Source: a virus
IMG/VR virus record: IMGVR_UViG_3300005530_000415
Location: 1 to 22,999 of that record
Length of the DNA stretch: 22,999 bases
Reading direction: 5' to 3' (one strand)
The notes beneath the pieces are model-generated. The model worked only from the letters and a program-made list of their open reading frames with translations. It made no database searches and was not told where the DNA came from. The position numbers and the translations under genes are program-made. This document shows positions 4,588 through 17,180 of this stretch, piece by piece. Position 1 is the stretch's first letter; the number at the start of each line of letters is the position of its first letter.

Positions 4588-4604
4588 TGGGATCCCGCGG
4601 CTCG

Positions 4605-4682
4605 TGGGAGAGGCTCGGACTCGAACCGAGCACTGCAGACTTAGCAGGTCTGCGCTAGCGTCTACCTTTCCGCCACTCTCCC
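4605..4682 (-). tRNA. tRNA-Ser(GCU), short variable loop
   Basis: The minus strand folds into a cloverleaf of about 78 bases: acceptor GGGAGAG with CTCTCCC, D arm GCGGAAAGGTAGACGC, anticodon stem CAGAC/GTCTG with loop CTGCTAA, and T arm CTCGG-TTCGAGT-CCGAG. U33 is followed by GCU, which reads AGC and AGU serine codons, and CTGCTAA is the usual loop of such tRNAs. The variable region is only about 4-5 bases, whereas bacterial serine tRNAs carry a long variable arm. One extra base sits between the T stem and the acceptor. CCA is not encoded. Confidence 0.8.
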
Positions 4683-7872: not shown

Positions 7873-7987
7873 GTCTCCTCCAGAACGAGAGCGACGAGCA
7901 CATCGCGATCAGGTTCGCCAGCGCCGAGCAGGGCGCCGAGGGCGGTGGGTTAGCTGGGTATCCACGACGTCTCTGCCATGATCTCAT
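7865..7987 (-). CDS. 40-residue basic small protein, tentative
   Basis: The 111-bp gap between the polymerase and the glycosyltransferase holds a frame whose ATG (7987) overlaps the polymerase TGA (ATGA) and has a strong ribosome site, CTGGAGGTAGC. It ends inside the start of the glycosyltransferase gene. The product opens with MRSWQRRRGY, then a Pro/Ala stretch, then a short hydrophobic segment (LANLIAMCSSLSFW) and a basic end. The overlaps at both ends support a real gene, but it has no known relatives and may be only a coupling device. Confidence 0.5.
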   Translation of the reverse strand: MRSWQRRRGYPANPPPSAPCSALANLIAMCSSLSFWRRHV

Positions 7988-10626
7988 GCTACCTCCAGTT
8001 TGTAGTCCTCAACTTCTCCCAGTGAGGGACCGACCTGTACGTCGACCGACAGCTTGACCCAGATCTGCTCCGGAGTTGTCGTCATCTCCTTCACCATCAG
8101 GGCGATGCCCTCGTCGAGACGGTCCTCACGGATCTCCGTAACGATCGAGTCGTGCACAGGGAAGAGGACGTGCCCGAGTCCTTCTTCCGGGAGTCGATGC
8201 GACAGTCGCGTAACTGCCATGAGACAGATGTCCGACGCGACCGACTGTGGTACGTGCGACGCCGCCTGGTTCCGAATGCCCTTAACGAGTTCGGGAGTGA
8301 CGAGCCTCCAACGTCGCTTGCGTCCGAAGCACGTCGTGATCTCGCCCTCCTCGAGGGCCATCCTCTCCCACTCGTCCCGGCCCCGCTTCCAGTCTGGGAA
8401 GCGCTTCCACAGAGCGTCGATGTACCCCTGTGCCTTGTCGACGTCGCCGCCGGTGAGTTCTTCCAGCTCGCCGATCGCCAGCGAGTACGCCTGTCGTCCG
8501 TAGCCCACGCCGTAGGTCACGAACTTGCTGTTGAACCGGTCGGTGCCCGAGACCTCCATCAATGGCTTCCCGAACATCGCAGAGGCGGCATGTCGGTGGA
8601 AGTCTGCCCGACCGAGCTCAGGGATCACATCGGTCAAGGCCTTGTACAGCGCCATGTCGTGCGTCTCGTTAGCCGCCGTGTACAGCTCGATCGCGGAGTA
8701 GTCCGCCTCGACGATGAGGTACCAGATCCCGTCGACCTTCCTCGCCGTCGTCCCGCGGAACAGCTTCCGCGTCATCTTGGCTAGCTTGGGGTTTACCTGC
8801 CACTTGGGGAGGGTCTGCACAGGAGGGTTGTGTACCGCAAGACGACCGGATCGGGTACCGAACAGGAGGAAGTCAGGGTGGACACGGCCGTCACTCCATA
8901 CATCATCGACGATCCCGTAAACGTAGTGTCGTAGGAGGCCATCCTTCTCCCGCAGGTCGAACAACATCTTGGCGAACGGTCGGCCTTGGTTCACATCGAG
9001 GAACTCCGCGTCGCACGACCTCCGGCCTCCTGGCATCTCCATATCCAGGATGTCGAACGCAAGGTGCTGAAGCTGCTTCGGCGACCGTGGGTTAAGCTTG
9101 CCTTCCCGCACCCGGTTGATGATGTACCGGCGCTTGTAGCACTTCGAGCACGACCCGTCCGCGATGGTGGTGTGCGTGTTCATCAGCTCACGCCACTGCG
9201 TCCGGGGTTTGCCAGATCCGATCAGCTTCTGCGCTGCCCACTCCGGCACGCACTCCGGGCAAGGTACGCCGACCTCAGTCTCCGGCACGACCTTCGGGTC
9301 ACGCGGGAATCCCTGCATCTTGGCGTACCGCTGGATCGATGCCTCAGTGTGCTGGATCTCCGGGAGCCACTCCTTCTCGATCTCCTGGGCGTACTCGAGG
9401 TCGATCTCCGCTCCGTGGGCTTCGTCGATCGCGAACGCCCGTTGTGCAGGGAGGAGAATGTTGACGTACAGCTGGTAGTTCTTCTCCACCTCCTGTGCCA
9501 GCCGCCGGAGGATCGGCCTCAGCGCTCTCGTGTTGAAGGCGTCGTACGCACCGTACCGGGCTTCCGCCAACCACTGTGCTGGTGTCTGAGGTCCTGTGCG
9601 GAAGATGTTGCCCGGAAGACCCTGCTCGTAGTACGGAGCGTTCAGGTACTGCCTCGACAGTGCCTTCAGTCCGACCTGTTCACCTCGTTCCGTTAGGCAC
9701 AGGGCGAGGGCCATGGTGCAGTCCGCGTTCGGGGGTACCGCTCCGATCTCTGCCTGGAGCACCTGGAAGTCGTACGACAGGTTGTGGAAGTCCCACCAGA
9801 TGTTCGAGTGCAGGAGAAGTGCCTTCATCAGGTTCCGACTGAAGTCGACGTCTTGTACGCGGCAGGAGTAGGTGTGCCACGGGTCCTCGTTCCTCGGACC
9901 GATCGTCACCTGGAACATGTCCCAGGTATCCTCGCCCGGTCGGGGTTGGTCGAATGGTCCGTGCGACTCCGTGTCGAGGCTGACCTCGAGTTCGCGTTGG
10001 CCAGCCCGCTCAAGGATCCGCTGTAGGAGGTGATCGATCTCCTTCCCGTCTTGGAGGTAGGTCCACGCGACCTTGTACTCCTTGTCCGGGAACGGTACCG
10101 TACCCTCAGTCAGGTGCCGGACTCGCTCAAGCGACCGGTAAATGTCGTCGAAGAACCCTTGACCTCCGTGTAGCACAGCCGCCGGATGATACGTAGGTAG
10201 AACCCACGCCGCCATCTCCTCCGACCACTGTAGTACACCCTGAACCTTGCCGATCCCATCCTTAGTGTGAAGTAGGCGTTGGGACGCGGTAGCTCCCATG
10301 GCAACGATGACTCGCGGATGACGCTGTCGCAGCTCTTCAACAAGCCTTGGAGTGCAAGCCTCCAGCATAGCTGCCGAAGGCGGGGCATCCTTGCCTTCCT
10401 TGGTGGGTCGACAGCCAACCGCATTGGTGACATAGACGTCCTTCCGTCGAAGTCCCACTCCCTCGAGTGTCGCGTCGAGCAATTGACCGGAAGCTCCAGT
10501 GAATGGCACCCCAGTCCGTACTTCATTGTAACCGGGTGCTTCTCCGACGATGCAGATTTCCGCGGTCGTCGGTCCGGAGCCAAAGCACTTCTGCCCGCCG
10601 TTCGGGCAGTTAAGGCACGCTGACAA
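7984..10626 (-). CDS. DNA polymerase I (family A) fused to an N-terminal family 4 uracil-DNA glycosylase
   Basis: The protein has 880 residues. Residues 1-175 are a family 4 uracil-DNA glycosylase: VGEAPG (27-32), TNAVGCRP, YHPAAVL (146-152) and Cys 4, 7, 72 and 91 for an Fe-S cluster. Residues ~205-380 are a 3'-5' exonuclease with all three motifs (D218/E220; N282/D286; Y358/D362). C456/C459 and C493/C496 suggest an inserted zinc site. The polymerase has motif A DYSAIEL (642-648), motif B R697-K701-Y705-YG, and motif C HDS (825-827), where most relatives have HDE. Y705 is Tyr as in T7 polymerase. It is the replicative enzyme, with uracil sensing or repair built in. The only sensible start is TTG at 10626; a 17-codon leader ORF overlaps it. 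Confidence 0.92.
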   Translation of the reverse strand: MSACLNCPNGGQKCFGSGPTTAEICIVGEAPGYNEVRTGVPFTGASGQLLDATLEGVGLRRKDVYVTNAVGCRPTKEGKDAPPSAAMLEACTPRLVEELRQRHPRVIVAMGATASQRLLHTKDGIGKVQGVLQWSEEMAAWVLPTYHPAAVLHGGQGFFDDIYRSLERVRHLTEGTVPFPDKEYKVAWTYLQDGKEIDHLLQRILERAGQRELEVSLDTESHGPFDQPRPGEDTWDMFQVTIGPRNEDPWHTYSCRVQDVDFSRNLMKALLLHSNIWWDFHNLSYDFQVLQAEIGAVPPNADCTMALALCLTERGEQVGLKALSRQYLNAPYYEQGLPGNIFRTGPQTPAQWLAEARYGAYDAFNTRALRPILRRLAQEVEKNYQLYVNILLPAQRAFAIDEAHGAEIDLEYAQEIEKEWLPEIQHTEASIQRYAKMQGFPRDPKVVPETEVGVPCPECVPEWAAQKLIGSGKPRTQWRELMNTHTTIADGSCSKCYKRRYIINRVREGKLNPRSPKQLQHLAFDILDMEMPGGRRSCDAEFLDVNQGRPFAKMLFDLREKDGLLRHYVYGIVDDVWSDGRVHPDFLLFGTRSGRLAVHNPPVQTLPKWQVNPKLAKMTRKLFRGTTARKVDGIWYLIVEADYSAIELYTAANETHDMALYKALTDVIPELGRADFHRHAASAMFGKPLMEVSGTDRFNSKFVTYGVGYGRQAYSLAIGELEELTGGDVDKAQGYIDALWKRFPDWKRGRDEWERMALEEGEITTCFGRKRRWRLVTPELVKGIRNQAASHVPQSVASDICLMAVTRLSHRLPEEGLGHVLFPVHDSIVTEIREDRLDEGIALMVKEMTTTPEQIWVKLSVDVQVGPSLGEVEDYKLEVA

Positions 10627-11437: not shown

Positions 11438-11583
11438 ACCTCACCTCCGTCGACACCGGGCGGAGGCAGTCCGGGATGCTTCCACCCGTACGCTCCGCGT
11501 ACTTCATGCTCCTCCTCCCGGACGAACAACGGCACATCAGTTCCACTGACCCAGCCGATGTGGTTCCAGCCAAGCTCCTTCAT
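11434..11583 (-). CDS. 49-residue hypothetical protein coupled to gat-queC
   Basis: A short frame starts at an ATG (11583) that overlaps the TGA of the Gat-QueC fusion gene (ATGA) and ends overlapping the next gene's GTG by four bases. The product (MKELGWNHIGWVSGTDVPLF and so on) is acidic to neutral and may form a single small domain. A longer upstream frame exists but would run 100 bases inside gat-queC without a ribosome site. Translational coupling implies its level follows the QueC enzyme. The family is unknown. Confidence 0.55.
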   Translation of the reverse strand: MKELGWNHIGWVSGTDVPLFVREEEHEVRGAYGWKHPGLPPPGVDGGEV

Positions 11584-13031
11584 CGCGCTGATGAGGTCTG
11601 GTCGAGGTACCTCGTCGGGTCCGGAACGTTCGCCATCCGAAACGCTGTGCTCCTCTGGAGGCACGGACCGCACGTCCCGCAATGCAGCTCACCTCCCTTA
11701 TAGCAGCTGTACGTGTACTGGTGCGGCACCTGGAGCTTCGCTCCGAGCGTGACGATCTGGTGCTTCATCAGACCGCCGAGCGGATCGCTGATCCTGATGT
11801 GCCGGTAGGGAGCGACCGCGAACGGGACCAGCTGACGGAGCTTCTCGTACGTCTCCTGCTCGTTGTCGACGAACGCACACCCCTCCTCCTGGTTCGTCCC
11901 GAAGGCCACGCAGTCGTAGTTGTCCCGCTCCGCGATGGCGAGCGCCAGTGAGGCGAAGACCAGATTCCGGGCTGGGACCCACTCGGTCGACAGCTCCGCT
12001 CCAACCGCACCGGGAGCGATCGTTCCCTCGTTGGTGAGGACCGACGGGACCGTGGTGTTGAAGAAGTCCGTCTCCACGATCTGCACCGAACACCCGAGAT
12101 CGGCGGCCAGGTGCCCGATCGAGTCCAACTCCCTCCCCTGTGCTCGGCAGCTGTAGGCGAAGTGCAAGAGCGTAACGTCGTTCTTCCACGTCTTCTTGTG
12201 GAGGTACGCCACCGTGGCACTGTCCAGACCACCGCTGCACACGACCAGCACGCGGTCGGGTGTCGGAGCCTTCGCCGGGTACAGCTCCGCGTCGGCGTGC
12301 AGGACGTTGACCTGTCCTGACCCGTACTTGACGACCTGAACGTTGCCGGCGGCGTACGGACCGAGTTGCACAGGTGAGGGATCGTTGAGCGGGTCGTACA
12401 TGCCGTCGAAGTACGCTCGCTGCGAGGCGAAGAGCACCCCATCCTGTGTCCGCAGAGCATACAACGGCTTGTAGTTGCAGCCCCACCACATGCGGTTGTG
12501 CTCCGACTTGTGTACAGCGAGGATCGCGAAGGACCCCTTCAACATCTCGCAGGCGTCCTTGAACCCGTACCGGTCCAGCAGGATGCCAATCGCGTACGAG
12601 TCGATCCGAGTTGGGGGAGCGGGTGAGAATGCGTCCCGCGAGAGTTGTTCCTCGCGGTATCCCTGCATGATCTCGCCATCGTTCGCGATGACGCCGTTGT
12701 GGGCGAAGATCCAGTTGCCCGACGGCGACATGAACGGAGGGATGTCCTCCGGCTTCTTTTGCTGCACCCATTCCGTCGCTGGTTCTCCGCGAAGGGTGCC
12801 GACTCCCGCGAACGGGTGATCCGGGATCGGTCGCGGTAGGATCGTGTGCGAGTGGTCAGGGAACGGACCGAAGTTCCTCCACGGTGCGGTCACCACACCC
12901 TTCGGTGCGACGTACTGCCATCCCCACGAGTCCTCGCCACGGTCCGTCGACCGCTTCATCAGTTCGCGCCACCAACGGTCGAACTGGACTGTCGGTGCCG
13001 CACTGACGGCCCCGACGATTCCACACCCCAT
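11580..13031 (-). CDS. gat-queC: glutamine amidotransferase-QueC fusion (7-cyano-7-deazaguanine synthase with class II GAT domain)
   Basis: The protein has 483 residues. Residues 1-240 are a class II amidotransferase: the nucleophile Cys in MGCGIVGA, then RSTDRGEDSWG, GTLRGEP, FAHNGVIAN and RIDSYAIG. Residues 258-470 are QueC: the ATP loop SGGLDS (266-271) and the zinc site C443, C451, C454, C457. QueC turns 7-carboxy-7-deazaguanine and ammonia into preQ0. Fusions of this type are known in phages with deazaguanine DNA, where the GAT part is thought to supply ammonia that converts preQ0 to the amidine (archaeosine base). The catalytic Cys is residue 3 rather than 2, so more than Met removal would be needed to free it. 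GGAGGGG precedes the ATG. Confidence 0.9.
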   Translation of the reverse strand: MGCGIVGAVSAAPTVQFDRWWRELMKRSTDRGEDSWGWQYVAPKGVVTAPWRNFGPFPDHSHTILPRPIPDHPFAGVGTLRGEPATEWVQQKKPEDIPPFMSPSGNWIFAHNGVIANDGEIMQGYREEQLSRDAFSPAPPTRIDSYAIGILLDRYGFKDACEMLKGSFAILAVHKSEHNRMWWGCNYKPLYALRTQDGVLFASQRAYFDGMYDPLNDPSPVQLGPYAAGNVQVVKYGSGQVNVLHADAELYPAKAPTPDRVLVVCSGGLDSATVAYLHKKTWKNDVTLLHFAYSCRAQGRELDSIGHLAADLGCSVQIVETDFFNTTVPSVLTNEGTIAPGAVGAELSTEWVPARNLVFASLALAIAERDNYDCVAFGTNQEEGCAFVDNEQETYEKLRQLVPFAVAPYRHIRISDPLGGLMKHQIVTLGAKLQVPHQYTYSCYKGGELHCGTCGPCLQRSTAFRMANVPDPTRYLDQTSSAR

Positions 13032-13811
13032 CTACCCCTCCAGGTACTCCCGCCATGCGGCTATGTTGTGTCGAGCGTGCTCGATGTGCTCTCGGTTGTC
13101 TGTGTGGTAGTCGAAGTAGCCGACTCGGCCACCGAGCGACTTCCGACCCGGGTACTTCGACGGTACCAGGTTCGGCAGACACGCGAAGCCGTTCAGTCCC
13201 CACACGACGACCTTGGATGCGTCGCACGTTGCGACGCGGTCGAGCGTCTCACTCGGGAGCGAGAACTCGCAGAAGCTCTCGGACAGACCGTTCAGGTGTA
13301 GCGGCTTCCGGGTGATCTCGGCGACGTCGTGGATGAGTTCGGCTCTCGTGCGACCGTACAGGTGCGCTTCCTCTACCAGTCCGATGTGGTCGACCGACCA
13401 GAGCGCGTCGAGTGCTCCGACGCACGCCGCGTACTCAGGCCACGAACGTCCGTGAGCGACGCCGATGGTCTTGATGTGCGGCAGAGCGTCACGGACTGTA
13501 CGACCGCAGTTCAGCGCGAGGTCGATCGTCGCCCTCGCGTTGCCGCCATCCTCGCCCCATGCGTCCGGGAGGATGAGAGTCTTGGCGTGGACCGTTCGGG
13601 CTGCCGTGATCAGGTCGTACATGTTGGCGACCTGACCCGTCTCGAACACGTCGCTGTCGACGATGATGTGGTCACCCCGGACGCCGCGGTTGTGGTAGAA
13701 CCTGCGGTAGCTGTCGTCCTTGAGCTGCGACGCGACCACCAGATGGGTCCTGTCCTCGGCGGACAGGACCTCATCCAGCAGCGGCGTCGGCACGATGTGT
13801 GCCAGTCGCAT
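13032..13811 (-). CDS. dpdA: DpdA-like DNA transglycosylase (7-deazaguanine insertion)
   Basis: The 259-residue protein is a TGT-like barrel by motif: HIIVDSDVFETG (48-59) sits where the first catalytic Asp and substrate loop lie, LPDAWGEDGGN (81-91) is a second acidic loop, and IGVAHGRSWPEY (116-127) matches the GxxxG base-binding loop. Known DpdA proteins swap guanine in DNA for preQ0 or its derivatives, as tRNA-guanine transglycosylase does in tRNA. Its location inside an operon with all preQ0 genes supports a DNA rather than tRNA role. The ATG overlaps the upstream TAA (TAATG). The similarity is read by eye, so the exact DpdA subgroup is uncertain. Confidence 0.75.
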   Translation of the reverse strand: MRLAHIVPTPLLDEVLSAEDRTHLVVASQLKDDSYRRFYHNRGVRGDHIIVDSDVFETGQVANMYDLITAARTVHAKTLILPDAWGEDGGNARATIDLALNCGRTVRDALPHIKTIGVAHGRSWPEYAACVGALDALWSVDHIGLVEEAHLYGRTRAELIHDVAEITRKPLHLNGLSESFCEFSLPSETLDRVATCDASKVVVWGLNGFACLPNLVPSKYPGRKSLGGRVGYFDYHTDNREHIEHARHNIAAWREYLEG

Positions 13812-14812
13812 TACGCCTCGTAGATGGTGAACATGTCGGTGTAGGTCTGACCGTCCCACGACGAGTGCGCCTCGCGGGTGTCGTGAGCGACACGCTTGAA
13901 CCCTCGCTCGTGCTCCAGGTAGTCGAACACCTCCTCCGGGTCGGGCGAGTTGGTGCTCTGCGTGGAGACGCAGAAGCTACCCGCGCCGCGGTCGAAGGCC
14001 TTCCCGATCCAACTGGCGACGTCCCGCATCGGAGTCGTGTCGTCGTCGTTGGACCAGAAGTCGATGTGCGGGACGTCCTTCTGCGTGACGATCCCGCCGA
14101 CCTCGTAGGTGTAGAACTCGTACGGGTTGACGGCGTCGTCCGCCACGTACTGCTTCTGCCACGGCCACGCCGGGTCGATGTAGCACATCGCACCCGGGAC
14201 GATGTGCATCTCGTCCAGCGCGTCGTCCGCGTCGGCGTTGGTGCACTGCACCGGCGACGCCGTGAGGAGCGAGACACGCATCTTCCACTGCTCGACGAGC
14301 GACTCGACCACCTGAGTCTTGAACGTGGTGAGCGACTCCGTCCACGTCGGAGTCCACGAGCGCTTGTCGTCCGCTCGGTAGTACTTGACCAGCGTCCGAC
14401 CGACGGCCGCAGCGAACTCCGGATGGATCCGGACGATGCCGTCGATGTGACGACAGATGCTGATCGGAGCGATCGCCGCCAGCTGACTGTTCCGCGTCGT
14501 CCATCCCTCGACCGGGTCGATGCCGAGGAGGACCTCCGCGTAGGCGGTCCTCAGCATCGGCTCCGTGTAGTTGGCGTCGTCCGGAGTGGCCTGCATCGAC
14601 GCCTTGTGCCCGTAGTGTGCGTACGGGTTGCGGTCGTTGACGCCGACCGCGATCCCGTGCCGCGCGTAGTGCAGGGGGATCTGCGCGCCGCCGGCGGTCA
14701 GGTCGATGTACTGCGGTGACTCGAACGCTCGGTGCTGGACCACGTCCGGCATCTCGTCCAGAGACTGCGTACCCCAGTAGACGGTGGGCTTGTCGCTGAT
14801 GATCTTCGTCAC
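13811..14812 (-). CDS. methyltransferase-like protein inside the deazaguanine operon
   Basis: The protein has 333 residues. IDLTAGGAQIPLHYA (36-50) followed by VGVNDRNPY resembles the SAM-binding motif I and acidic motif II of DNA methyltransferases of the D12/N6-adenine kind, and MCYIDPAWPW (209-218) fits catalytic motif IV with DPAW in place of DPPY. It may methylate adenine or cytosine in phage DNA, or decorate the deazaguanine base itself. The GTG at 14812 overlaps the TGA of folE and has GGAGGG upstream; a longer frame shadows folE. Its place between folE and dpdA means it is coexpressed with them. Substrate not determined. Confidence 0.65.
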   Translation of the reverse strand: MTKIISDKPTVYWGTQSLDEMPDVVQHRAFESPQYIDLTAGGAQIPLHYARHGIAVGVNDRNPYAHYGHKASMQATPDDANYTEPMLRTAYAEVLLGIDPVEGWTTRNSQLAAIAPISICRHIDGIVRIHPEFAAAVGRTLVKYYRADDKRSWTPTWTESLTTFKTQVVESLVEQWKMRVSLLTASPVQCTNADADDALDEMHIVPGAMCYIDPAWPWQKQYVADDAVNPYEFYTYEVGGIVTQKDVPHIDFWSNDDDTTPMRDVASWIGKAFDRGAGSFCVSTQSTNSPDPEEVFDYLEHERGFKRVAHDTREAHSSWDGQTYTDMFTIYEA

Positions 14813-15438
14813 TGCAGGATCCCTCCAACGGGTGTCATCAAGGTCATGAACTCTGCCTTCGCGGCGCCGTCGGTGAGGAAAAGGCCCCGGACCGCCGACG
14901 TTACAGTACCCGCACATGGTTCTTCCACTCCGCGAAGGGACATACAGCCGTGCCACGCGCGAATAACCACCATACATCCGCGCGGTTCGAGGTACTGATC
15001 AACAGCCTCGACGATCTGCTGCGTCAGTCTCTCCTGGATGGTGAGCTGATGCGCATAGTGGTCAACGAGTCGTGCGAGCTTGCTGAGGCCGGTGACGCGG
15101 GAGTCGGGTATGTAACCGACCCAGGCCCAGCCGGTGACGGGGAGGACGTGATGAGCACACATCGATACGACCTGGATGGGTCCAACCTGGACCATGCTGT
15201 CATGCTGCGACTCAAAATCGCGGCCAAGGTACCGCTCGACTGCGACATCGTTCTCCTTCCTTCGGAACTCCCAGAGCGCCTTCGCCGCACGCGCCGGCGT
15301 GTCCTGCATGTGCTCGTCGTGACGGTTGTACCCGAGGAGCTCCAGGATCTCCGCGTACTTCTGCGCGATCCCCTCCTGCTTCCAGGCCGCGAGAGATCCC
15401 ATCGGGAGGTCGTTCGGAACGTTGAGCTGGATCGTCAC
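14809..15438 (-). CDS. folE: GTP cyclohydrolase I
   Basis: The 209-residue protein converts GTP to dihydroneopterin triphosphate, the first step to preQ0. The hallmarks are CAHHVLPVTG (94-103) with the zinc ligands C94 and H97, AWVGYIPDSRVTGLSKLARL, and HGCMSLRGVE with the third zinc ligand C165. Length matches the family. The GTG at 15438 overlaps the TGA of queE (GTGA) and has GAGG 6-7 bases upstream. The long frame upstream only shadows queE. Having its own folE lets the phage pull GTP into deazaguanine synthesis independently of the host folate pathway. Confidence 0.93.
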   Translation of the reverse strand: MTIQLNVPNDLPMGSLAAWKQEGIAQKYAEILELLGYNRHDEHMQDTPARAAKALWEFRRKENDVAVERYLGRDFESQHDSMVQVGPIQVVSMCAHHVLPVTGWAWVGYIPDSRVTGLSKLARLVDHYAHQLTIQERLTQQIVEAVDQYLEPRGCMVVIRAWHGCMSLRGVEEPCAGTVTSAVRGLFLTDGAAKAEFMTLMTPVGGILQ

Positions 15439-16157
15439 GTAAACCTCGCATCGGGGTGCCAGACGTACTTGTGTACCTGCAGCGTGAGCCTCCACGGCAG
15501 CTTGCGCGTACGGAGGTACTCCACGACGACCTTCGGGTCGATCTGGCCCCACACCGGTCCGACGAACACAGGGAGGTGGAAGCTATTCGCCGAGTCGTGG
15601 TACGCCAGGTATGCGGAGGTGAGGTCCGCTACGGACCCTACCGTGAACTTGATCGCGTTGCCGCTAGCGTTCGCTCGCATGTCGCGGAGGTTCGTTGCCC
15701 GGGTCTGGATCTGCTCGTCGGTGAGGACCTCACCCGATCCGGGCAGCTTCCAGTCCAGGACGATGTTGCCGTACTGCGCGATCCACGTGCCGTACGGCAG
15801 GGTGCCGTTCGAGAACATCTCGACGTGAAGGCTGGCTTCCTTGAGCTCCTTGAGGAGCAGTGCGACGGACGTTGCCGGCTGGAGCATCGGCTCGCCGCCG
15901 GTGAGGCACACGTTCCTCGCACCTGTGTCTCGTGCGAGGTCGATCGTCTCTCGTGCGAGCTCGATCGGTTCGACGACCTTCTGCTCCTTCCGGTACAGCT
16001 TCGGGTCGATCGCGTGAGGAGTGTCACACGGCCATCCGGGACACGTCAGGTTGCACCCCGCGAACCGGACGAAGATCGTCGGCACCCCGACCCGAGGACC
16101 CTCACCCTGTGTCGAGTAGTACAACTCGAGGAGTCGCAGCGACTTGGGGTCCGTCAC
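15435..16157 (-). CDS. queE: 7-carboxy-7-deazaguanine synthase (radical SAM)
   Basis: The 240-residue protein makes 7-carboxy-7-deazaguanine from carboxytetrahydropterin. It opens with ELYYSTQGEGPRVG (11-24), typical of QueE, then FAGCNLTCPGWPCDTP with C35, C39 and C44 for the Fe-S cluster, then VCLTGGEPMLQ. The cysteine spacing is C-x3-C-x4-C; most radical SAM enzymes use C-x3-C-x2-C, and other QueE variants exist. The GTG at 16157 overlaps the TGA of queD and has GGAGGAACTC upstream. It is in the middle of the four-gene preQ0 set. Confidence 0.92.
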   Translation of the reverse strand: MTDPKSLRLLELYYSTQGEGPRVGVPTIFVRFAGCNLTCPGWPCDTPHAIDPKLYRKEQKVVEPIELARETIDLARDTGARNVCLTGGEPMLQPATSVALLLKELKEASLHVEMFSNGTLPYGTWIAQYGNIVLDWKLPGSGEVLTDEQIQTRATNLRDMRANASGNAIKFTVGSVADLTSAYLAYHDSANSFHLPVFVGPVWGQIDPKVVVEYLRTRKLPWRLTLQVHKYVWHPDARFT

Positions 16158-16594
16158 GAGTTCCTCCACTCCGCGTTGTTGACGGAGGTCTCCCAGACTG
16201 AGACGGAGACTGCCTCGATGCCGGTGGCGCCGACCATGCGCTCGCCGATGATGCGAGCGAGGTTTTCGGTGGTTGGTTCGACGTCGAGCGTCGCCAGTCC
16301 GGGAAGCGAGACCCAACCCTCAGTGTCCACAAGATGAAGCTTCTTCGCCCACGGGTCGTCCTTGTTCAGCAGGACGCGGTGGTCGAAGTTCCGGTCGAGG
16401 TAGTTCCGGAACGTCGCCTTGAGGTCGCCGAAGTCGATGCCTTCGAGGTAGCCTCGACCGTCGACCTCGCCCGTGACCTCGAGTGTCGCCCACCACGAGT
16501 GACCGTGGATGGCTTCGCACTTACCGGGCGTGAGGAACAGGCGATGCGCCATCTCGAAGTTGTGCCTCACCCGAATGAGCTGAACCTGACTCAC
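16154..16594 (-). CDS. queD: 6-carboxy-5,6,7,8-tetrahydropterin synthase
   Basis: The 146-residue protein acts second in the preQ0 path. The zinc ligands are H17 (FEMAHRL), H30 and H32 (IHGHSW), the active Cys is C26, and NFDHRVLLN and VEPTTENLA supply the other catalytic and substrate residues. It starts at a GTG with GAAGGAGGG upstream. The start lies 74 bases inside the end of the RuvC-like gene, a longer overlap than elsewhere in the operon. The stop overlaps the queE start, so queD, queE and folE are translationally coupled. Confidence 0.93.
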   Translation of the reverse strand: MSQVQLIRVRHNFEMAHRLFLTPGKCEAIHGHSWWATLEVTGEVDGRGYLEGIDFGDLKATFRNYLDRNFDHRVLLNKDDPWAKKLHLVDTEGWVSLPGLATLDVEPTTENLARIIGERMVGATGIEAVSVSVWETSVNNAEWRNS

Positions 16595-17180
16595 TGGTGC
16601 CCTCCTTCTCGTAGTACCCGATCGCGAGACCGACGTGGTACCGAACGAACCCGGCTGCGCTGCGGTTGACTGACCGGGCCGCGTCCTCAAGCATCTGCTT
16701 GAAGCGCGGACTGACGTTGACGCCGAGTAGCTCGGAGAGCTTCTCCTTGTCGTCAGGCGTCACTGTCTCCACTAACTTCCCTCCTCCCTCTGCTAGTGCG
16801 TGCGCTAGTGCGTCCGCGGTGTGTATTGGTAGCGTAAGGCCGAACTTCGCGTTCCATCGAGCGACCTCCGCCTTGGCTTCGGTCAAGTAGGCCTTGCGTC
16901 GCGCGGGCTGTACAACCTTCACGTTCCACCGCTGCAGCTGACTGCCGTAGTCGAGAAAGCCCACCACCCCGATGGTGTGCCGAGCGTGTGAACTGATCGG
17001 ACCCGCGGCTTGGAAGTCCTCGATGATGAGCCGTGATCCGGTGGCCGGAACGAACCTCGAGATCCACCTCCACGTCAGCAACGGGTCAGTGAGGTACGCG
17101 AGGTCGACCGCTATGCCTCCACCGAGGGTGACACAGGCAAGGCCAGTCGTTCTGCCGGGATCGACTGCGACGATGTACAT
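16521..17180 (-). CDS. RuvC-like Holliday junction resolvase
   Basis: The protein has 219 residues. MYIVAVDPGRTTGLA (D7) opens an RNase H fold, LIIEDFQ (E54) gives the second acid, and HTADALAHAL (D123) the C-terminal acids, as in RuvC-type resolvases that cut branched DNA before packaging. It follows the Sak4-like and DUF669-like genes, completing a recombination set. TAAGGAGGAGC precedes the ATG, directly after the structured element at 17191-17285. The last ~25 residues, rich in Ser and Gly, overlap queD in another frame and are probably a flexible tail. Confidence 0.82.
   Translation of the reverse strand: MYIVAVDPGRTTGLACVTLGGGIAVDLAYLTDPLLTWRWISRFVPATGSRLIIEDFQAAGPISSHARHTIGVVGFLDYGSQLQRWNVKVVQPARRKAYLTEAKAEVARWNAKFGLTLPIHTADALAHALAEGGGKLVETVTPDDKEKLSELLGVNVSPRFKQMLEDAARSVNRSAAGFVRYHVGLAIGYYEKEGTSESGSAHSGEAQLRDGASPVPHAR

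Follow-up and report, generated by a model that had tools for sequence, protein, structure and literature searches.

A phage family A DNA polymerase fused to a family-4 uracil-DNA glycosylase domain, encoded beside 7-deazaguanine genes

RESULTS

A single chain of glycosylase, exonuclease and polymerase

The window analysed here is a stretch of 22,999 nucleotides from an uncultivated virus (IMG/VR record IMGVR_UViG_3300005530_000415, positions 1 to 22,999). A sequence-only reading had placed a uracil-DNA glycosylase (UDG) fused to a family A polymerase at 7984-10626. The open reading frame is real and these coordinates are exact; the strand, which that reading did not state, is minus. The gene starts with TTG at 10626, stops at 7984 and is open across 880 codons, giving an 880-aa chain. 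A G-rich stretch resembling a ribosome binding site, GGGGGAG, lies two bases before the TTG. Since the upstream in-frame stop is just nine codons before the TTG (open frame 889 aa), the true start cannot be far ahead of it, and the protein contains the first two cysteines of the UDG domain (C4, C7) whether or not the start shifts in that direction. The gene and its parts are as follows.

7984..10626, minus strand: UDG - 3'-5' exonuclease - family A DNA polymerase fusion, 880 aa (Pfam, TIGR00758, AlphaFold2, PDB fold match)
10102..10626, minus strand: family-4 UDG domain, aa 1-175 (Pfam, TIGR00758, residue table, alignment to 1UI0)
9505..10026, minus strand: DnaQ-type 3'-5' exonuclease, aa 201-374 (Pfam DNA_pol_A_exo1, E 1.5e-8; motif positions)
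9139..9261, minus strand: insert with CPEC (456-459) and CSKC (493-496) near the start of the polymerase domain (sequence scan)
8017..9111, minus strand: family A polymerase domain, aa 506-870 (Pfam DNA_pol_A, motif positions)

The Pfam families fall in the order UDG, DNA_pol_A_exo1, DNA_pol_A. AlphaFold2 returned a single confident model of the full fusion (pLDDT 87.9, pTM 0.86), with low confidence at aa 447-489, and the best PDB fold matches to this model were Pol I Klenow, Bst and Taq. The fusion architecture is not a chance artefact.

Pfam UDG was matched at aa 15-163 (E 3.8e-31), and the NCBIfam model TIGR00758 (UDG_fam4) gave 126.4 bits, just above its cut-off of 125.3. The top PDB match of the domain was the Thermus thermophilus UDG, 1UI0 (E 7e-25), and catalytic residues were assigned by alignment to 1UI0 and to relatives. 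Motif A is GEAPG (28-32), with E29 as the motif A Glu and E35 as the second Glu; the Asn motif is T67-N68-A69-V70 (TNAV); and motif B is TYHPAAVL (145-152; HPAAVL at 147-152), with H147 as the motif B His and His153 at its end, where family 4 has Arg. The Fe-S cysteines are C4, C7, C72 and C91, which align with the cysteines of relatives. In UdgX, uracil is held by the equivalents of the Asn and His, and the nucleophile is activated by a Glu that family 4 also conserves (PMC10359453); E29, N68 and H147 are the counterparts of these Glu, Asn and His residues, which engage uracil and water in UdgX and in family 4. UdgX-type cross-linking was rejected, with TIGR03914 at 106.5 versus 189.95 bits, GEAPG rather than GEQPG, and no KRRIH. 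The stand-alone family-4 enzymes of T. thermophilus (1UI0), T. maritima (1VK2) and S. tokodaii (4ZBX) share the fold family and the motifs but, unlike the window's protein, have no polymerase fusion. By TIGR00758, both motifs and the four cysteines, the domain thus appears complete in catalytic and cluster residues, in agreement with the earlier description of an intact family-4 UDG.

Exonuclease and polymerase motifs

The exonuclease motifs are intact (D218-T-E220, N282..D286 and Y358..D362), with D218, E220, D286 and D362 as catalytic acids. The polymerase domain (Pfam E 1e-48) carries motif A as D642..E647, motif B as R697..K701..Y705 and motif C as V824-H825-D826-S827 (VHDS). With these Pfam domains and catalytic acids, the protein belongs to the family A polymerases with a 3'-5' exonuclease, and the proposed fusion of UDG to both activities is borne out.

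Two polymerase residues had been singled out as departures from the usual pattern. HDS is indeed present in motif C in place of the Pol I-type HDE, but it is not odd: of the 92 UDG-linked polymerases with a readable motif C, 60 have HDS, 25 HDA, 4 HDE, 2 HDN and 1 HDQ, whereas HDE is the commonest form among UDG-free polymerases (31). Since 85 of the 92 have HDS or HDA, the absence of HDE does not disqualify phage members, and HDS is the norm for UDG-fused polymerases. Likewise, Tyr705 does occupy the position of Phe762 in E. coli Pol I, but is not singular, being one of 8 Tyr among 151 polymerases (17 have Leu and the rest Phe), all 8 in the window's clade. Tyr at this site is also known from T7. 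Both residues are ordinary for phage polymerases.

The CPEC...CSKC insert may form a zinc-binding ribbon; part of it falls in the low-confidence segment 447-489. It is absent from close relatives, and a similar double CxxC occurs in the UDG-free polymerases of loci L159, L167 and L177.

Deazaguanine genes upstream of the polymerase

Five genes, all upstream of the polymerase and on the same strand, form a deazaguanine cluster.

11580..13031, minus strand: Gat-QueC, a glutamine amidotransferase fused to QueC (Pfam, PHROG, similarity)
13032..13859, minus strand: DpdA-like transglycosylase, TGT fold (AlphaFold, Foldseek, HMM)
14809..15552, minus strand: FolE, GTP cyclohydrolase I (Pfam E 2.6e-56)
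15435..16316, minus strand: QueE-like radical SAM 7-carboxy-7-deazaguanine synthase, its true start probably inside this frame (PHROG QueE-like, E 1.6e-34)
16154..16690, minus strand: QueD-like 6-carboxytetrahydropterin synthase (Pfam PTPS E 2.9e-24; PHROG QueD-like)

Gat-QueC shares ∼36% identity along its whole length with phage proteins that carry an archaeosine synthase annotation; a single-sequence scan with it gave no match. The DpdA-like protein matched no Pfam or PHROG family, and its model (pLDDT 89.9) had tRNA-guanine and archaeosine transglycosylases as best Foldseek matches (E 1e-7, prob 1.00). An HMM connects it with the genes that immediately precede the polymerase in phages StAshley, Youna2 and BSP7 and in ∼30 viral loci. 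The whole dG+ gene set (FolE, QueD, QueE, (Gat-)QueC and DpdA) is encoded in the window, and in studied phages Gat-QueC in place of QueC leads to dG+ (PMC6884629). The DNA of this phage is thus likely, judging from its genes, to carry an archaeosine-type 7-deazaguanine, and the deazaguanine context that had been proposed is supported at the level of genes.

Between FolE and DpdA lies a 388-aa frame (13811-14977, minus strand) with no Pfam, PHROG or NCBIfam match, whose fold, judged by eye, is possibly DNA methyltransferase-like. ARAGORN predicted a tRNA-Ser (GCT anticodon) at 4604-4682 on the minus strand.

The fusion is already known from phages

The fusion had been taken to be unusual, and this is not supported: the design has been known since phage SPO1, recurs in Thermus phiLo, Serbin, PMBT14 and other phages, and is carried by dozens of uncultivated viral loci. 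A tblastn search of phage records gave 24 in which the match covers 80% or more of the protein; most are from SPO1-type Bacillus phages, with ∼25% identity, and they are joined by Brevundimonas, Weizmannia and environmental phages. With the UDG part as the sole query, 56 phage records matched, many of the matches being annotated as polymerases and some as stand-alone UDGs, including Serratia Serbin, Pseudomonas PMBT14, Thermus phiLo and Bacillus BSP7. In IMG/VR, a single-sequence scan with the fusion found no relative, an alignment query being needed; the alignment-based scan returned 80 loci, nearly all with a fused UDG-polymerase. As to a cellular or prophage origin, a scan of cellular genomes with a single polymerase motif A pattern, which was not exhaustive, gave matches confined to the polymerase half and no fusion.

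Three sets of known phages bear comparison with the window. SPO1 gp31 and its counterparts in SP82G, CampHawk and phi18 have the same order of UDG-like domain, exonuclease and polymerase, with ∼25% identity over 94-95% of the protein, so that the window's chain, with UDG N-terminal to exonuclease and polymerase, is of SPO1 type. The SPO1-type relatives examined share HDS in motif C; unlike the window, phi18, an Exiguobacterium phage and SBSphiC have a degenerate UDG motif A and have mostly lost the Fe-S cysteines. SPO1 DNA carries hydroxymethyluracil, not deazaguanine. The second set comprises Brevundimonas StAshley and MaInes, Bacillus BSP7 and Weizmannia Youna2, in the window's polymerase clade, where a DpdA-like gene lies directly upstream of the fused polymerase, with QueC, QueD, QueE and FolE nearby; they differ in a QueC without the amidotransferase part and in Phe at 762, and are ∼24-27% identical to the window's protein. 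Thermus phiLo and PDB entry 9qhs (1142 aa), which also contains a UDG domain, likewise join UDG, exonuclease and polymerase in one chain, the UDG motifs of phiLo being intact, but their polymerases are longer (1142-1175 aa) and far from the window on the tree, and deazaguanine genes were not found within the stretch examined. The 9qhs protein may be that of phiLo, since its molecule name, 'Putative DNA-directed DNA polymerase I', matches that of the phiLo gene.

In Youna2 (L004:5965-9234) and BSP7 (L097:19905-22808) the polymerase gene is broken within motif B or immediately behind it, that of Youna2 ending in ...KAVNFG and a stop, with the C-terminal part in a later frame in both; the interruption is probably an intron. 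Another clade of fused polymerases (L002, L094, L095 and related loci) has as neighbours a divergent thymidylate synthase and a conserved gene that belongs to no Pfam family, to which Serbin and PMBT14 add a dCMP deaminase; the neighbourhood is possibly a thymine-modification cluster.

Patchy decay of the UDG domain

Catalytic loss in relatives had been named as the observation that would reduce the UDG domain to a structural role, and the outcome was divided: such loss is seen in many relatives, while the window and 29 of the 56 UDG domains in its clade, whose members were picked manually on the first tree, retain E/D29, E35 and H147, despite polymerase identities of ∼25-35%. The four Fe-S cysteines are more widely kept (48/56), and 20 of the 56 domains have all four but are missing E/D29, E35 or H147. 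In a 15-member subclade most members have SRSPG...NNP, and deazaguanine genes were not found in the flanks. On the polymerase tree the window's sister (99) is locus L180 (IMG/VR 3300025530_000352), which is only 26% identical by BLAST and has the same gene order, QueD-QueE-FolE-DpdA-GatQueC-polymerase, but whose UDG domain no longer has the Asn, the catalytic His or the Fe-S cysteines; its residue 762 is Phe. Some glycosylase families have Asn where H147 stands, so a domain scored as degenerate is not proof of inactivity. Nevertheless, the repeated loss of catalytic residues indicates that the conserved feature of the domain is its fold rather than its activity, and the role shared across relatives, as read from these residues, is probably DNA binding or uracil sensing.

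Within the clade, deazaguanine genes were present and absent, respectively, in 27 and 1 loci with an intact UDG and in 6 and 12 with a degenerate one (p = 5e-6, uncorrected). With three supported independent pairs only, this association was not significant.

Strength of the link to deazaguanine genes

A DpdA-like gene adjoins the polymerase, or lies a few genes away on the same strand, in ∼35 loci; its usual place is just upstream of the fused polymerases, though chiefly in a single polymerase clade. Among non-redundant viral loci of at least 10 kb, collected by similarity searches seeded with the UDG-polymerase family, at least two preQ0 genes were nearby at 21 of 60 UDG-linked versus 1 of 39 UDG-free polymerases (p = 1e-4, by Fisher tests that ignore the relatedness of loci); many of these loci have short flanks, so that the absence of a gene is weak evidence. 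Thymidylate synthase showed no bias in the same loci (p = 1), and this enzyme, a possible sign of hydroxymethyluracil, was rejected as a general partner of the fusion, although together with a second conserved gene it is common in one other clade. On the tree, nearly all deazaguanine UDG-polymerases fall within one 61-member clade; the large trees were built with FastTree and have several long branches, the window being one of them in the first tree. Independent-pair tests of the association between UDG and deazaguanine genes were not significant (median p 0.5-1).

A scan seeded with FolE gave 28 deazaguanine loci whose polymerase domain was usable, 6 of them fused, 9 split (a UDG-bearing frame adjoining a shorter polymerase frame) and 13 UDG-free; the fusion is present in all 4 of its loci that have a DpdA-like gene as well as a polymerase. 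Given the 13 UDG-free polymerases and the tree-corrected tests, a universal link between deazaguanine and UDG was rejected. We take the DpdA/deazaguanine-polymerase link to be real synteny within a lineage, and its functional meaning is putative.

Two variant arrangements were also seen. Split replicases in deazaguanine loci (L209, L232, L236, L239, L241, L245, L246, L251 and L253) have a UDG frame of 350-420 aa followed by a polymerase frame of 467-523 aa. In L020, L022, L026 and L032, two tandem full-length UDG-exonuclease-polymerase genes lie downstream of the DpdA-like gene, which all four fragments include, one UDG being canonical (GEAPG, in the two loci inspected) and the other altered (GEFPSYYE), which suggests a division of labour after duplication.

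DISCUSSION

The fusion architecture itself is near certain. For its role, we lean towards a tailed-phage replicase with a DNA-binding or uracil-sensing UDG domain at its front that, in this copy, can probably still excise uracil. The polymerase would be the replicative enzyme, presumably the main one, of a tailed phage with archaeosine-type 7-deazaguanine DNA; as the window is a 23-kb fragment, another polymerase may lie elsewhere. The UDG domain probably arose as a part that keeps hold of DNA or detects uracil close to the polymerase, and it is widely retained in that capacity. With every uracil-excision residue present in the window's copy, real excision would be expected, by which the enzyme would inspect the template or the fresh product for uracil, while the exonuclease would proofread and the HDS polymerase extend. 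The abasic sites produced by excision at the fork would call for repair enzymes, and neither an AP endonuclease nor a ligase was recognised among the frames searched in the window; sensing or stalling without excision is therefore possible.

Several findings in the family would fit a UDG domain that only holds DNA or is architectural, its catalytic residues being remnants or binding uracil uncut: the 20 of 56 clade domains with their cysteines and a broken catalytic set, the SRSPG...NNP of nearly all the 15-member subclade, the SPO1-type phages without GEAPG and in some cases without cysteines, and L180, which retains the domain after losing the Asn, the His and the cysteines. For the window's protein, however, we regard this as doubtful, since all catalytic and cluster residues have been retained at great divergence, as have the catalytic residues in 27 of the 33 members with deazaguanine genes. 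Those same 27 (against 1 without such genes, and 6:12 where the UDG is degenerate) could instead tie the domain to the 7-deazaguanine pathway, for example in reading the modified base, or an abasic intermediate left by DpdA, at the fork. The DpdA-like genes beside or near the polymerase in ∼35 loci, the bias in preQ0 genes (21/60 versus 1/39) that thymidylate synthase does not share, and the split UDG and polymerase frames in nine other deazaguanine loci point in this direction. The loci are related, however, and the independent-pair tests not significant; in the FolE scan, 13 deazaguanine loci encode a polymerase that lacks UDG, and deazaguanine genes are missing from the flanks of many UDG-fused ones. 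We consider such a tie very unlikely. It also seems very unlikely that DpdA and the fused polymerase make up a conserved unit of replication, with the UDG domain linking base exchange, or a check on exchanged or abasic sites, to the polymerase as it moves; if true, deazaguanine marking and uracil surveillance would both take place at the fork.

Databases list UDG-polymerase fusions under names like 'phage SPO1 DNA polymerase-related protein', and we found little that explains what they do; in the open-licence literature we found no paper on the function of the fusion or on its pairing with DpdA. The replicase with a DNA-binding or uracil-sensing front domain is ordinary as a fusion; the linkage to DpdA and the patchy decay of the UDG domain are the interesting part. 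Comparable polymerases offer a natural series, from an intact UDG, through a cluster without the catalytic residues, to a fully degenerate domain, which makes the role of the domain directly testable. The recurrent pairing of DpdA-like and polymerase genes offers a clue to the way in which phages introduce 7-deazaguanine into their DNA.
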